From: Acidobacteriota bacterium
Lineage (GTDB): Bacteria > Acidobacteriota > Blastocatellia > RBC074
Direction: 5' to 3'
DNA: 39,759 nucleotides
NCBI GenBank assembly: GCA_016196035.1
Contig: JACPYM010000097.1
Coordinates: forward strand, 1 to 39,759
A program made the position numbers and the translations under genes. Below are positions 31,914-37,561 of the stretch, piece after piece. Each line of letters opens with the position of its first letter. Position 1 is the first letter of the stretch. A model generated the notes under the pieces. That model ran no database searches, had not been told where the DNA came from, and saw nothing but the letters and a program-made list of their open reading frames with translations.

Positions 31914-32017
31914 GACAACGTAGGGGCAGACCTGGGTGTCTGCCCCGGTGGCATTAGACGTAAGCGGGGGCGTCTGACCCGACCGGGGCAGACACCCAGG
32001 TCTGCCCCTACGTTGTC
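31914..32017. repeat. REP-like palindrome pair (BIME), copy A
   Basis: Arms 31914-31949 and 31982-32017 pair perfectly over 36 bp. Each arm is itself a REP-like unit: a GTAG foot, then GGGGCAGAC, a 6-nt loop (CTGGGT) and GTCTGCCCC, so the whole is two inverted REPs. It lies in the 538-bp gap between the surface-protein and sigma-factor genes, which holds no gene. Confidence 0.93.
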
Positions 32018-32050
32018 GTCACCGGATTTTTTACAGGAAGAAAATTTTGA

Positions 32051-32210: not shown

Positions 32211-32792
32211 ATGTCTGAGACCGCGACAACCCCCGTCACACAACTCTTGCAAGCCTGGCGCGCGGGCGATCAGGCGGCGCTCGATCAACTGTTGCCGCTG
32301 GTACACACCGAATTGCACAGCCTGGCGCGCCGCATGATGAGCCGCGAAAATCCGGGCCACACCTGGCAAACAACTGAGTTAGTCAATGAGGCGTATCTGC
32401 GGCTGGTGGGGCAATCCCACCAGGCCGAATGGCAGGATCGCGCGCATTTCTTTGCCGTCGCCTCCCAGGTAATGCGCCATCTGTTGGTGGATCACGCCCG
32501 CACAAAGCAGGCGGGCAAACACGGCGGCGCCGTGCAACGCATGGCATTGGAAGAAGCGGCGCTCGTTGCGCCCGAACGCTCGGCCACCCTGCTGGCGCTG
32601 GATGAGGCGCTCGACCGGCTGGCGGGCGTTGACGCGCAAAAGAGCCGCATCGTCGAGTTGCGCTATTTCGGCGGCCTGACGGTTGATGAAGTCGCCGACG
32701 TGCTCGGTATCGCCGCCATCACGGTGAAACGCGAATGGGCCAGGGCGAAGCTGTGGCTGCATCGTGAAATGCAAACAGGGGCCGCGCAATGA
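32211..32792 (+). CDS. ECF-like RNA polymerase sigma factor (TIGR02999 type)
   Basis: This 193-residue sigma-70 family protein starts at the ATG at 32211, with the purine-rich AGGGGAAAGG upstream; an upstream in-frame ATG at 32160 lacks one. Sigma region 2 is seen in LLQAWRAGDQAALDQLLPLV and TTELVNEAYLRLV, and region 4 in RIVELRYFGGLTVDEVADVL and ITVKREWARAKLWLHREM. This acidobacterial/planctomycete ECF-like group usually sits directly before a Ser/Thr kinase gene, and such a kinase lies 1.2 kb downstream on the same strand. The stop overlaps an ATGA reading M-T-P-A-F-Q, which resembles the start of that kinase (M-T-P-A-R). A RAYT/REP block appears to have separated the two. Confidence 0.93.
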   Translation: MSETATTPVTQLLQAWRAGDQAALDQLLPLVHTELHSLARRMMSRENPGHTWQTTELVNEAYLRLVGQSHQAEWQDRAHFFAVASQVMRHLLVDHARTKQAGKHGGAVQRMALEEAALVAPERSATLLALDEALDRLAGVDAQKSRIVELRYFGGLTVDEVADVLGIAAITVKREWARAKLWLHREMQTGAAQ

Positions 32793-32838
32793 CTCCGGCA
32801 TTTCAGCGTAGGGGCAGATCTGTGTGTCTGCCCCGGTG
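32745..32838 (+). repeat. Duplicated segment, copy 1 (3' end of sigma gene plus half REP)
   Basis: Bases 32745-32838 recur at 32966-33059 (offset 221 bp) with only about four changes. The unit covers the last 16 codons of the sigma gene, the overlapping ATGA and the first half of a REP palindrome. Confidence 0.92.
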
Positions 32839-32900
32839 GCAGCAGACGGAATCGCAGGCCGCAAAAGCGACCGGGGCAGACACACAGGTCTGCCCCTACG
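32807..32900. repeat. REP-like palindrome pair, copy B
   Basis: Arms 32807-32837 and 32870-32900 (CGTAGGGGCAGATCTGTG and complement) match with one mismatch over 31 bp. The loop (GGCAGCAGACGGAATCGCAG) is nearly the same as that of copy F, so B and F are close sisters. A half-unit with a GTCGGCC-type stem follows near 32910-32925. Confidence 0.92.
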
Positions 32901-32965
32901 TTGTCGGGGTTGACACGCAGGTCGGCCCTGATAGGTAGAAATCCAATGTCATACGATCCCGAAAA

Positions 32966-33059
32966 GCGAAGCTGTGGCCGCATCGTGAAATGCAAACAGG
33001 GGCCGCGCAATGATTCCGGCATTTCAGCGTAGGGGCAGACCTGTGTGTCTGCCCCGGTC
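32966..33059 (+). repeat. Duplicated segment, copy 2 (with half REP, copy C)
   Basis: This is the second copy of the sigma-gene 3' end (GCGAAGCTGTGGCCGCATCG) and of ATGATTCCGGCATTTCAG. It ends in the half REP CGTAGGGGCAGACCTGTG...CCCCGGT (33028-33058). No matching right arm follows directly; the RAYT gene begins here instead. Confidence 0.92.
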
Positions 33060-33773
33060 GCATCAGACAAATTCGGATGCGTCAGAACCCAGCATGGTCG
33101 TCGCTCGATTCGCCTGCGCGGGTACGATTATTCGGCACCGGGCAAGTATTTTGTGACTTTTTGTGTGCAGCAGCGAAAATGCCTGTTCGGAGAGGTCAGC
33201 ACGAGCGAGATGAGTTTGAACGAGGCCGGTCGGATGGTTGAAAAATGGTGGCAGGAGTTGACGCGCAAGTTTCCACTGGTGGATTTGGATGAGCACATCA
33301 CGATGCCGAATCACTTGCACGGCATCATTGTGATCGTGGATCGGCGCAAGCGCGAGAAAGACCTTTTCTACGAAGGAAAAACAAACGACCACATCACACA
33401 AGCCCTGGCAGCGCTCCCTGAAAAGAGCGCGCCTTTGCCGGAAATCGTGCAATGGTTCAAGACGATGACCACCAATGAGTACATTCGCGGAGTCAAGCAA
33501 TCGGATTGGCCGCGGTTTGAACGCAAACTCTGGCAGCGCAATTATTACGAGCACACCATTTTCAGTCTGCGGTCATTGCAGAATATTCGCCAATACATTC
33601 GCGCAAATCCCGCGCTGTGGCCGTATGACCGGGATAATTCCTTTGCTAGTGCGCCTGATCGTGAACAGGTCAGGCTGCTGCTTGCGAGCAAGTTTGAAAT
33701 AACGGAGGAAGAACTCAATTTCATCCTCGATTTTGATGACGAATATCGGGAGGAAGAGGTTCCCGGCGCGTAG
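33045..33773 (+). CDS. REP-associated tyrosine transposase (RAYT, Y1/HUH family)
   Basis: This 242-residue single-strand DNA transposase belongs to the IS200-like Y1_Tnp/TnpA_REP family, which nicks and joins REP hairpins. It shows RRSIRLRGYDYSAPGKYFVT (about 19-38), the HUH metal motif in MPNHLHGIIVI (His90, His92), KLWQRNYYEHTI and the catalytic Tyr184 in IRQYIRANPALW. This tyrosine aligns in context with Tyr115 of E. coli TnpA-REP (DYIYINP). The only good start is GTG at 33045, which lies inside the half REP copy C, and the TAG stop (33771-33773) is part of the GTAG foot of REP copy D. The gene is thus exactly framed by its presumed substrates. It is probably intact; activity is unproven. 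Confidence 0.92.
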   Translation: MSAPVASDKFGCVRTQHGRRSIRLRGYDYSAPGKYFVTFCVQQRKCLFGEVSTSEMSLNEAGRMVEKWWQELTRKFPLVDLDEHITMPNHLHGIIVIVDRRKREKDLFYEGKTNDHITQALAALPEKSAPLPEIVQWFKTMTTNEYIRGVKQSDWPRFERKLWQRNYYEHTIFSLRSLQNIRQYIRANPALWPYDRDNSFASAPDREQVRLLLASKFEITEEELNFILDFDDEYREEEVPGA

Positions 33774-33862
33774 GGGCAGACCTGCGTGTCTGCCCTGGTG
33801 GTGTTTAGCGCATTCGATTTCGTCTCAGGCGACCGGGGCAGACACACAGGTCTGCCCCTACG
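33769..33862. repeat. REP-like palindrome pair, copy D
   Basis: Arms 33769-33799 and 33832-33862 (CGTAGGGGCAGACCTGCGTG and complement) pair with a few mismatches. The left foot supplies the RAYT stop codon. The right arm merges into a 33-bp tandem repeat. Confidence 0.9.
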
Positions 33863-33959
33863 TTGTTGGGTTGACACACAGGTCTGCCCCCTACGTTGTT
33901 GGGTTGACACGCAGGTCTGCCCCCTATGTTGTTGGGTTGACACGCAGGTCTGCCCTCGA
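33861..33959. repeat. 33-bp tandem repeat, three units, derived from REP arm
   Basis: Units 33861-33893, 33894-33926 and 33927-33959 are near-identical (CGTTGTTGGGTTGACACGCA then GGTCTGCCCCCTA). Each carries the right half of a REP stem plus a GTTGGGTTGACAC linker also found after copy B (GGGGTTGACACGCAGGTC). This is likely serial duplication of one REP end. Confidence 0.93.
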
Positions 33960-33994
33960 CGGTTGAGCGACAAGGCAGCAACAGGAAATGTGTA

Positions 33995-36900
33995 ATGACA
34001 CCGGCACGCTGGCAACAAGTTGACCAATGGCTCGAAGCCGCGCTCGAACAGCCACTGGCTGAACGCGCGGCCTTCCTGGCACAGACTTGCAACGGGGACG
34101 AGGCGTTGCGGCAAGAGGTCTTGTCGCTGGTGGCTGGCAGCGCGCGCGCCGACGATTTCTTTGAAGCGCCGCCGGTCGCCGAAATGAGCGCGGCGTTGCA
34201 ACGCGCCGAGTCCGCCGTTGCGCCGGGACAGCATATCGGCCCGTACCGGATTTTGCGCGAGTTGGGGCGCGGCGGCATGGGCGTAGTGCTGCTGGCGGTG
34301 CGCGACGATGATGTTTATCAAAAGCAGGTCGCCATCAAACTGGTTTCGCCCAATCCGCTGCAACCGGAATTGCTGCGGCGCTTCCGGCGCGAGCGGCAGA
34401 TTCTGGCCAATCTGGATCATCCGCACATCGCGCGTTTGCTGGACGGCGGCAACACGGAGCAAGGCTGGCCGTATCTGGTGATGGAATACATCGAGGGTGT
34501 GCCGCTCGCGCAGTACTGCCAGCAACAAAAGACGCCGCTGGCCCAGCGGTTGGCGCTCTTCCGCGATGTGTGCGGCGCGGTGCAATACGCGCATCAGAAC
34601 CTGATCATTCATCGCGATCTGAAACCCGGCAACATTCTGGTCACAGCGGCGGGTGAGGCAAAGCTGCTGGATTTCGGGATCGCCAAACTGCTTGACCCGC
34701 AACATCACCAGCTTACGGCGCATGCGACGCTCACCGGGACACAGTTGATGACGCCCGAATACGCCAGCCCCGAGCAAATGCGTGGCGAACAGATCACCAC
34801 GGCCAGCGATGTTTACAGCCTGGGCGTGCTGCTTTACGAACTACTGACCGGCCAATCCCCCTATCGTTTCAAAAGCCAGGCGTTGCCCGAAATCATCCGT
34901 ACCGTTTGCGAAGACGAAGCCCTGCCGCCCAGCGTGCGCATGGGCCAAAGTACAGTCGGGGCAGACCTGCGTGTCTGCCAACGTACCGTAGGGGCCGACC
35001 TGCGTGTCGGCCCCGGTCGGGGTTTGACGTCTGCGGGTTTGTCTGACGCCATCGGGGCCGACACGCAGGTCGGCCCCTACCCTGTTTTGCCAGCCGAGTT
35101 GAAAGGCGATCTGGACCTCATCGCGCTGACCGCTTTGAACAAAGAAGTGCCGCGCCGTTATGGCTCAGTCGAACAATTGAGCGAAGACCTGCGGCGTTAT
35201 CTGGCTGGGGAACCGATTCTGGCGCGCACCGCTACGTTTGGTTACCGCATCGGCAAATTTGTACGCCGCAACCAACTCGGCGTGAGTACCGCCGTGCTCG
35301 TCCTGTTGACGCTGATTGGCGGGATTATCGGCACGACCTGGCAGGCGCGCGTGGCACAAGAACAGGCGCGCGTGAATCGCCGCTTGGCTTACGCCGGGCA
35401 AATGCATCAGGCCGTGCAAGCCTGGGAGATCGCCAACATGGAGCAGTTGGGCGATTTGCTCGAACAATCCAAACCCCAGCCCGGCGAAGAGGATTTGCGT
35501 GGCTTCGAGTGGTATCACCTGTGGCGGTTGGCCTATCGCCACGGCGAACGCTACAGCCTGCCGCATCCGAGCGACGTTTGGGCGGTGGGTTACTCACCTG
35601 ATGGCCAACGCATTGCTTCGGGTTGTGCCGATAACAAGCTGCGCGTGTGGGATGCCGCCACCGGGCGCGCACTGGCCACGTTCAGCGGACACACGGGGAA
35701 CATCTGGGCGATCGCTTTTTCACCCGACGGTCAGCGCATCGCCACGGCGAGCGGGGATCGCACGGCGAAATTGTGGGACGCGGCGACGGGGCGCGAACTC
35801 CTCACCTTCAACGGCCATACCAACCAAGTGATGTCCGTGGCGTTTGCGCCGGACGGCAAGACGCTGGCTACTGGCGGCCGCGACAACACGCTGAAATTGT
35901 GGGACGTGGGCACAGGCCGCGAACTGCGCAGCCTGCAAAGCAACGCCAGTTGGGTCAATGCCGTGGCGTTTTCGCCGGATGGCCGGCTGCTGGCAACGGG
36001 GCACGCCATTACCCCTAACCTCAAATTGTGGGACGCCGCCACGGGCCGGGAGCTGCGCGCTTTCAATGAATTTGCGTGTGCCGTTTTGTCGGTGGCGTTT
36101 GCGCCGGATGGCAAGAGCGTGGCAGTGGGTTACAGAAACCGCTTCGCGCAATTGTTTGAGGTCAGCAGCGGCAAACTGCTCGCCATGTTCAAAGGTCACG
36201 CCGGTGAGATCAGAACCGTGGCGTTATCACCAGATGGAAAGTTGCTGGCGACGGGCAGCGCTGATCGCACCGTTAAGTTGTGGCGGGCGGTGACGGGTGA
36301 GGAAGTGGCTACGCTGAAAGGCCACCTGGGCCAGATTTGGTCAGTGGCCTTTGCGCCGGACGGCCAGCGCCTCATCACCAGCGGCGATGACCACACCGCC
36401 AGGCTATGGGACATTCCCGCTGCGCTGGAATTCACGGCGCTCAAGTTTCTTGGTGGTCAGCAAGCCTTTGCGCTGTTCTCACCCGATGGCCGGATACTGG
36501 CGGTAACAGGTCAGACCTACACCGTCAGGTTATTAGATGCCGCCACCGGCCAGGAACTCGTGACCATCGCCGAGCGGGCTGACCTCACATCGTTGGCCTT
36601 CTCGCCTGACGGGAAAAGTCTGGCCACTGGAAATCGGGACGGCAAAGTGAGTTTGTGGGATGCGGACACCGGTCAAGAGTTCATGACTTTCAAAGGTCAC
36701 ACGGCACAGGTCAACGCCGTGACGTATTCACCCGACGGCCAACGGCTGGCGACGGCTAGCTCGGACAAAACGGTGAAGGTCTGCCAGGCTGCTACGGGGC
36801 AGGAACTCTTCACGTTCAAAGGACACACCAAGCTGGTGCGCGCTGTCGCCTTTTCGCCGGATGGCAAACGCCTGGCTTCCGCCGGTTACGACAACGTCGC

Positions 36901-37333
36901 GCGCCTCTGGGACAGTGCCACGGGCCGGGAACTGGCGGTGCTCAACGGTCACACAGAGCCGCTGCTGGCGCTGGCCTTTGCGCCGGATGGCAAGACGCTG
37001 GCGACCGGCAGCGCCGACAATACGGCGAAGTTGTGGGACGTGGCGACGGGCCGCGCACTCGGCACCTTCAAGGGGCACGCGGGCCACGTTCGCTGTCTGG
37101 CGTTTTCGCCGGATGGCACCAGACTGGCGACCGGCAGCGCCGAAGGAATGGTCAGATTGTGGGATGTCGCGACGCAGCAGGAGATCATCGCGCTGAAAGG
37201 CCACGACGACGCGGTCGGTTCCGTCGCTTTTGCGCCCGACGGCCAGACGCTGGTCAGCAGCGGCACCGATGGTGTCGTGCGGTTCTGGCGCGCGGCGACG
37301 CGGCAGGAAGTGACGGGTATGGGCGGCCAGTAA
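33995..37333 (+). CDS. Membrane Ser/Thr protein kinase with 14 WD40 repeats
   Basis: The protein has 1112 residues. Order: a short N-terminal helical region (MTPARWQQVDQWLEAALEQ); a PknB-like kinase domain (about 84-390) with ILRELGRGGMGVVLLAV, VAIKLV, HRDLKPGNILV, DFGIAKL and TPEYASPEQM; one transmembrane helix (about 428-452, VSTAVLVLLTLIGGIIGTTW); then 14 WD40 units from about 520 to the end (GHTGNIWAIAFSPDGQRIAT type), enough for two seven-bladed propellers. Residues about 320-362 (STVGADLRVCQRTVGADLRV onward to IGADTQVGPYP) are encoded by inserted REP copies between the kinase core and LKGDLDLIALTAL. It probably signals with the sigma factor upstream. Confidence 0.93.
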   Translation: MTPARWQQVDQWLEAALEQPLAERAAFLAQTCNGDEALRQEVLSLVAGSARADDFFEAPPVAEMSAALQRAESAVAPGQHIGPYRILRELGRGGMGVVLLAVRDDDVYQKQVAIKLVSPNPLQPELLRRFRRERQILANLDHPHIARLLDGGNTEQGWPYLVMEYIEGVPLAQYCQQQKTPLAQRLALFRDVCGAVQYAHQNLIIHRDLKPGNILVTAAGEAKLLDFGIAKLLDPQHHQLTAHATLTGTQLMTPEYASPEQMRGEQITTASDVYSLGVLLYELLTGQSPYRFKSQALPEIIRTVCEDEALPPSVRMGQSTVGADLRVCQRTVGADLRVGPGRGLTSAGLSDAIGADTQVGPYPVLPAELKGDLDLIALTALNKEVPRRYGSVEQLSEDLRRYLAGEPILARTATFGYRIGKFVRRNQLGVSTAVLVLLTLIGGIIGTTWQARVAQEQARVNRRLAYAGQMHQAVQAWEIANMEQLGDLLEQSKPQPGEEDLRGFEWYHLWRLAYRHGERYSLPHPSDVWAVGYSPDGQRIASGCADNKLRVWDAATGRALATFSGHTGNIWAIAFSPDGQRIATASGDRTAKLWDAATGRELLTFNGHTNQVMSVAFAPDGKTLATGGRDNTLKLWDVGTGRELRSLQSNASWVNAVAFSPDGRLLATGHAITPNLKLWDAATGRELRAFNEFACAVLSVAFAPDGKSVAVGYRNRFAQLFEVSSGKLLAMFKGHAGEIRTVALSPDGKLLATGSADRTVKLWRAVTGEEVATLKGHLGQIWSVAFAPDGQRLITSGDDHTARLWDIPAALEFTALKFLGGQQAFALFSPDGRILAVTGQTYTVRLLDAATGQELVTIAERADLTSLAFSPDGKSLATGNRDGKVSLWDADTGQEFMTFKGHTAQVNAVTYSPDGQRLATASSDKTVKVCQAATGQELFTFKGHTKLVRAVAFSPDGKRLASAGYDNVARLWDSATGRELAVLNGHTEPLLALAFAPDGKTLATGSADNTAKLWDVATGRALGTFKGHAGHVRCLAFSPDGTRLATGSAEGMVRLWDVATQQEIIALKGHDDAVGSVAFAPDGQTLVSSGTDGVVRFWRAATRQEVTGMGGQ
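34955..35080 (+). repeat. REP-like elements inside the kinase gene, copy E
   Basis: A half unit (34955-34979, GTCGGGGCAGACCTGCGTG...) is followed by a perfect pair of arms 34988-35014 and 35054-35080 (GTAGGGGCCGACCTGCGTG and complement, 27 bp). In the paired arms the stem pair A-T of the other copies is replaced by C-G (GGGGCCGAC/GTCGGCCCC), a compensatory change that keeps the hairpin. The insertion stays in frame with no stop. Confidence 0.93.
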
Positions 37334-37440
37334 CTCTGGTTGATTCTGACTCCGACCTATCGTCCACAGACGCGCCGCGTCAAAAGAAGCAACAGACTCT
37401 CACCAAATAAATGCTTCCTGCAAAAAATCCGGTGATGACA

Positions 37441-37536
37441 ACGTAGGGGCAGACCTGTGTGTCTGCCCCGGTGGCAGCAGACGGCATCGAAGGCTGCAAA
37501 AGCGACCGGGGCAGACACACAGGTCTGCCCCTACGT
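37441..37536. repeat. REP-like palindrome pair, copy F
   Basis: Arms 37441-37472 and 37505-37536 pair perfectly over 32 bp (ACGTAGGGGCAGACCTGTGT and complement). It sits between the convergent kinase and phosphatase genes in an otherwise gene-free 228-bp gap, and the loop is nearly identical to copy B. Confidence 0.94.
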
Positions 37537-37561
37537 TTTGCGGTCTTTTGGCTGGCAAAAA

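Follow-up and report, generated by a model that had tools for sequence, protein, structure and literature searches.

A RAYT gene and its REPs between a sigma factor gene and a kinase gene that probably once overlapped in an acidobacterial genome

The locus lies in a stretch of 39,759 nucleotides (the window), which is one whole contig of a 9.59-Mb draft genome of an Acidobacteriota bacterium in 139 contigs. An ECF sigma factor gene occupies positions 32211 to 32792 of the forward strand in the list of open reading frames; in a family profile search, its product scored 216.6 bits against TIGR02999 (cut-off 126.15) and 181.1 bits against PF07638. Downstream, on the same strand, is a gene for a Ser/Thr kinase with WD40 repeats (33995 to 37333; PF00069, 161 bits), so that the window holds the pairing of a TIGR02999 sigma factor gene with a Ser/Thr kinase gene. 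The two genes are 1,202 bp apart, and a RAYT gene and several REPs lie between them.

The body of the RAYT gene runs from HGRRSIRL to the stop codon (33093 to 33773, forward strand). Its product matches PF01797 at 23.7 bits (cut-off 23) and NF047646 at 56 bits, which is below the equivalog cut-off of 80, and it carries the motifs MPNHLH and YIRANP, 91 residues apart, and LWQRNYY; the PF01797 match and the first two motifs indicate a Y1/HUH transposase domain. In 36 of the 51 distinct relatives of this RAYT, a start codon and a YDP-like to HH-like motif stand directly before RRS, and the length from start to RRS is nine residues in 27 of these 36. In the window, the nine residues are present as seven plus two: the codons for the amino end, MSYDPEK, are detached at 32946 to 32966 (forward strand), and HG directly precedes RRSIRL. 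The motif [MV]x(1-2)YDPxK occurs a single time in the six frames of the window. The 126 bases between the two parts consist of a copy of the sigma tail, a junction block, a REP arm with its loop, and an in-frame TAG. A reading frame of 28 codons leads from the amino end to this TAG, which belongs to the GTAG of the REP, and the sole in-frame start before the body (among ATG, GTG, and TTG) is the GTG at 33045, inside REP C, where the formal open reading frame begins.

This intervening segment (32967 to 33092, forward strand, the ends being uncertain by a few bases) includes the junction block at 33010 to 33021, the arm and loop of REP C, and the TAG at 33030 to 33032. The first-pass annotation of this DNA, made from the letters alone, had described a 93-bp duplication of the sigma 3′ end, and this duplication is real: the sequences from 32745 onward and from 32966 onward are identical at 91 of their first 95 bases. 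Beyond these bases the copies diverge, the final block of the comparison, which lies in the REP loop, agreeing at 13 of 21 positions; a repeat search extends the duplicate to 122 nt at 89%.

The three REPs that had been reported in the gap are likewise genuine, B and D being inverted pairs and C a half with its loop. REPIN B, which has a GTAG foot, lies at 32804 to 32903 and folds as RNA at −82.2 kcal/mol (z −12.3); REPIN D lies at 33769 to 33865 and folds at −74.1 kcal/mol (z −9.4). The RAYT gene is therefore flanked by inverted, GTAG-footed REPs (REPINs B and D and the half C). Since REPINs B and D are predicted to fold stably as RNA, fewer transcripts may run through from sigma to kinase. 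The coupling of the two genes may have been weakened or lost. Scans of the locus for promoters and terminators did no better than scans of shuffled sequences (1 versus 0.9 and 3 versus 3.1, respectively). Another REPIN stands upstream of the sigma gene (31915 to 32018, from the merged loci of a DNA search of the genome), and one more follows the kinase gene (37438 to 37537), which among the matches listed is closest to REPIN B, at 95%. A DNA search and a comparison with relatives also revealed a REP group inside the kinase gene (34956 to 35086), where it is in frame (residues 321–364) and adds about 44 residues; it is absent from that place in three relatives, one of which (G006) has a shorter, different insert. 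Three copies of the REP 3′ arm, 33 bp apart, were found by the repeat search at 33855 to 33961 (forward strand), just before the kinase leader; they are progressively altered towards the kinase.

Three blocks resembling the kinase start were found where the annotation had placed them, at 32789, 33010, and 33995. The present start, ATGACACCGGCA, opens the kinase reading frame at 33995 and is preceded by a Shine–Dalgarno-like AGGA (the two together span 33983 to 34006, forward strand). The block at 32789 to 32800 (forward strand), ATGACTCCGGCA, overlaps the sigma stop codon TGA (32790 to 32792), and the block in the duplicate reads ATGATTCCGGCA. When the 12 bases across the sigma stop were compared with the pair's own kinase start in 39 pairs with gaps of at least 30 bp, the window had 11 of 12 in agreement, the next pair 8, and the remaining 37 at most 6. 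The kinase start is thus related to the block at the sigma stop, as had been proposed, rather than being of unrelated sequence, and the sigma-side block appears to be a former kinase start. Between this block and REPIN B there are three bases; the REP thus starts 15 bases into the former start of the gene and lies inside it. Upstream of the two starts the agreement is weak (9 of 17 bases, the maximum in 38 gapped controls being 7) and may come from a shared Shine–Dalgarno sequence. A plain search of the window for the junction-block pattern, with at most one mismatch, gave 4 matches where 0.92 would be expected, and at least 4 turned up in 7 of 100 shuffles; this is weaker evidence than the own-start comparison of the 39 pairs.

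The sigma protein was then used to search 118 genomes of the class, evenly sampled from a larger group (E ≤ 1e-55). The best match outside the window, at locus G010:C16, is 78% identical, and the next by E-value, at G006:C90, is 63% identical; in a sigma tree of 109 rows, the window and G010:C16 group together with support of 100/99. At G010:C16, the stop codon of sigma (TGA) and the start codon of the kinase (GTG) share a 4-bp overlap, GTGA, which is followed by ACTCC as in the sigma-side block of the window, so that GTGACTCC stands at the same place as the former start. Neither a RAYT match nor the REP pattern (with at most one mismatch) was detected in the G010 genome. A locus of the kind that the annotation had envisaged, with a 4-bp overlap of sigma and kinase and no RAYT detected, is thus available for comparison.

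The kinase side points the same way with less resolution. A tree built from 82 kinase amino ends places the window in a clade with G006:C90, G010:C53, and G010:C16 (support 0.94), and the junctions of these three relatives are all tight, at −4 bp for G010:C16, about +4 bp for G006:C90, and −29 bp for G010:C53. For G006:C90, the script picked an ATG at +4, and the conserved block begins at +16. Within the clade, the window and G006:C90 group with only 0.31, and the true counterpart among the three relatives is not singled out, which counts against the order of events favoured below. So does the gene neighbourhood, which seems to be conserved on one side at most: the gene divergent from sigma encodes a repeat-rich protein in both the window and the G010:C16 locus, a weak likeness of 31–43% identity in pieces, and no counterpart of the phosphatase gene on the far side of the kinase was found within the stretch that was compared. 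A comparison within the genus is uninformative, its single other genome being 73% complete and its best sigma match 59%.

The first alternative to be weighed is that sigma and kinase were already apart, as they are in many paralogous pairs, and that the RAYT merely entered the gap. A kinase start lies within about 1.4 kb of 88 of the 109 sigma genes surveyed, a count biased upward by the part of the loci that was fetched via kinase hits; sigma matches that ended before residue 170, that had no stop in the locus, or whose junction was already counted had been dropped. Of these 88 pairs, 35 overlap, 14 are 0–29 bp apart, 14 are 30–99 bp apart, and 25 are at least 100 bp apart. In the genome of the window itself, 36 of 48 sigma genes have such a kinase start (11 overlapping, 3 at 0–29 bp, 7 at 30–99 bp, and 15 at 100 bp or more), and the largest gap apart from that of the window is 872 bp. 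As 22 of these 36 pairs, the window included, have gaps of at least 30 bp, a gap alone proves nothing. A long gap in relatives that lack the RAYT had been named in advance as an argument against a split, and such gaps do exist between paralogous pairs; the nearest relatives, however, have tight junctions. These junctions, together with an 11-of-12 copy of the kinase start at the sigma stop that the other 38 gapped pairs do not have, make an older gap unlikely. Because of the same tight junctions and the duplicated start, there is good support for the claim that the pair once overlapped and was then driven 1.2 kb apart. The same genome has 52 TIGR02999-like sigma matches and 189 listed kinase/WD40 matches, a large expansion of sigma–kinase pairs.

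A second alternative, which is the one originally put forward, is that a single event, the arrival of the REPs and the RAYT itself, duplicated the sigma–kinase joint together with the 93-bp sigma tail. It would account for the copies of the junction that flank the REPs and for the duplicated kinase start. However, the sigma-tail copy sits between the MSYDPEK and the HGRRSIRL of the RAYT, and the near-identity of this copy (91 of 95) versus the poor agreement upstream of the kinase start (9 of 17) indicates two ages. A single event is thus slightly less credible even than an older gap, and the reading in which the arrival made the duplication was dropped once MSYDPEK, a piece that the annotation does not list, had been found upstream of the copy. 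Since the duplicate is placed inside the 5′ end of the RAYT gene, it is younger than the RAYT. A plain tandem duplication of a 221-bp unit was also considered and fails to explain why the loop of REP C differs from that of B; the duplicate might instead have arisen by REP-anchored copying or by duplication followed by gene conversion.

A misassembly of this repeat-rich stretch, with an unreal duplicate, is very improbable: the draft is in 139 contigs, of which the window is one, and several repeats of at least 37 nt are nearby, but there are 4 differences in 95 bases between the copies, and the REP loops differ strongly, which is not what one sequence placed twice would give.

The order of events that probably explains the locus is that a REPtron settled at the overlap of sigma and kinase, that REPs then spread, and that a later duplicate split the RAYT. 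The lineage would have acquired, presumably by horizontal transfer, a REPtron near TnpA-REP subclass 2.4, made up of a RAYT and REPs with a GTAG foot, and this would have settled where the end of sigma and the beginning of the kinase overlapped. HUH transposases of such a kind are not known to make target duplications, so the duplicated kinase start needs an extra step; the junction may have undergone a short tandem duplication, either earlier or together with the insertion. The kinase would have been saved because the junction is repeated on the far side and has a Shine–Dalgarno-like AGGA of its own there. REPs are indeed clustered around the RAYT, one group being in frame in the kinase gene, and would have accumulated there locally after the arrival. 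Finally, a later copying event at a REP arm may have carried the sigma tail, the junction, and the REP arm into the RAYT gene, where they now separate codon 7 from codon 8.

The idea that a RAYT has been caught moving with its REPs is supported only indirectly: the RAYT has a single match in its own genome, as if it had been acquired once and its REPs had then spread locally; the possibility of several RAYT copies was rejected on the same count. At E ≤ 0.001, RAYT matches are present in 16 of the 162 class genomes, its own included, and in one of the 11 genomes of the family, which is its own; none was detected in the other 10 at this threshold. A search of plasmids with the RAYT protein gave four records, all below 60% identity. 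The GTAG-footed REP pattern, with at most one mismatch, occurs 31 times forward and 32 times in reverse in the genome of the window, and among the 162 genomes it was otherwise found in G021, in G022, and, as one hit, in G078; it was found at this stringency in none of the other 10 family genomes. By DNA search, the genome has at least 42 REP loci (at least 84 matches, merged), a lower bound since 40 of the 66 first candidates were scored, so that the RAYT is accompanied by dispersed cognate REPs that the 10 family genomes without a RAYT do not have. Six of these loci lie within 5.6 kb around the RAYT, a place that was not chosen blindly, versus 0.025 expected if they were uniformly distributed. 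G022 and G078 have the REP pattern without a RAYT detected at E ≤ 0.001, which counts against the order of events favoured here. G022, a class relative whose draft is 87% complete, matches the pattern fifteen times in each orientation and has no RAYT match at that threshold.

The split 5′ end suggests that the RAYT may have been lost as a functional gene or weakened. That its frame is still open was rejected as proof of use, the frame remaining open in 60% of neutral simulations at 2% change and in 25% when indels were allowed. A more speculative view, to which we would give little credence, is a control of the RAYT by its own substrate: with a 28-codon leader that stops at the TAG of the REP and with a GTG start in the hairpin, the output of the gene would depend on the hairpin and would perhaps be repressed. 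If this were so, such REP duplication could be a general brake on REPtrons or a route to their death.

The RAYT is likely to belong to TnpA-REP subclass 2.4 (RAYT group 4), with which it shares, as that subclass is described in PMC6006769, an HUH/Y1 transposase, the motifs NHxH, WQ, and YIxxNP, and long flanking REPs with a GTAG foot. A patchy occurrence across phyla is also shared, as are, among its relatives, in-frame REPs between the HUH and Y motifs. Measured against the motifs tabulated for the subclass (NH[IFV]H, WQ, and YIxNNP; PMC6006769), NHLH and YIRANP are each one residue off, and WQ is present in LWQRNYY. Among the 51 relatives, NHLH recurs in four, and many do not conform to YIxNNP. 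REPs inside the rayt gene are a mark of the subclass, predominant rather than universal in the account given there, and such RAYT–REP units do not seem to transpose as a unit (PMC6006769). The RAYT in the window differs from this description in its split 5′ end and in that no palindrome is left between the motifs; no 8-bp palindrome was found in the gene, and as the in-frame REP is merely predominant, this does not exclude the assignment (PMC6006769).

Earlier reports describe RAYTs between inverted REPs and the gathering of REPs near a newly arrived rayt gene (PMC2817692, PMC8266576); REPs in host open reading frames are on record too, along with the term REPtron (PMC3733652). The REPtrons read as recent arrivals resemble the window in that REPs are concentrated around a single RAYT and relatives lack them (PMC2817692, PMC8266576); the window differs from these published cases, as there described, in having a comparison locus free of the unit, a gene overlap as the target, and a RAYT that was split afterwards. 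The group of REPs in frame in the kinase is of the type known from intragenic REPs and the Rickettsia RPE, although here the host gene is a Ser/Thr kinase-WD40 gene beside the RAYT (PMC3733652). A literature search on RAYT and "empty site" found no paper, most subscription journals lying outside its coverage. Local REP accumulation and REPs in genes being already published, the window adds a clean new example of something known, and it leaves the general picture of REPs and RAYTs unchanged. A locus with a readable junction free of the unit, a duplicated kinase start, local REP spread, and later damage to the RAYT helps to trace the entry and ageing of a REPtron, and it indicates that overlapping genes can be driven apart by a REP unit without either being destroyed.

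Some further observations concern the relatives of the RAYT. In loci L062 to L159, 38 of the 48 RAYT frames of at least 120 aa hold a perfect, GC-rich, 8-bp palindrome, mostly soon after the HUH motif; codon-shuffled controls gave a mean of 1.5 and at most 4. The notion that REPs inside RAYT genes are new was rejected, as they are published for subclass 2.4 (PMC6006769). Where a RAYT gene has both an internal palindrome and a GTAG-footed flanking one, the arm is identical in 14 of 17 cases (mean 7.2 and maximum 12 in 1000 permutations). The RAYT of G021 (G021:C52, 84132 to 84722) has a REP inside its own frame (84459 to 84484) and another about 100 bp upstream.
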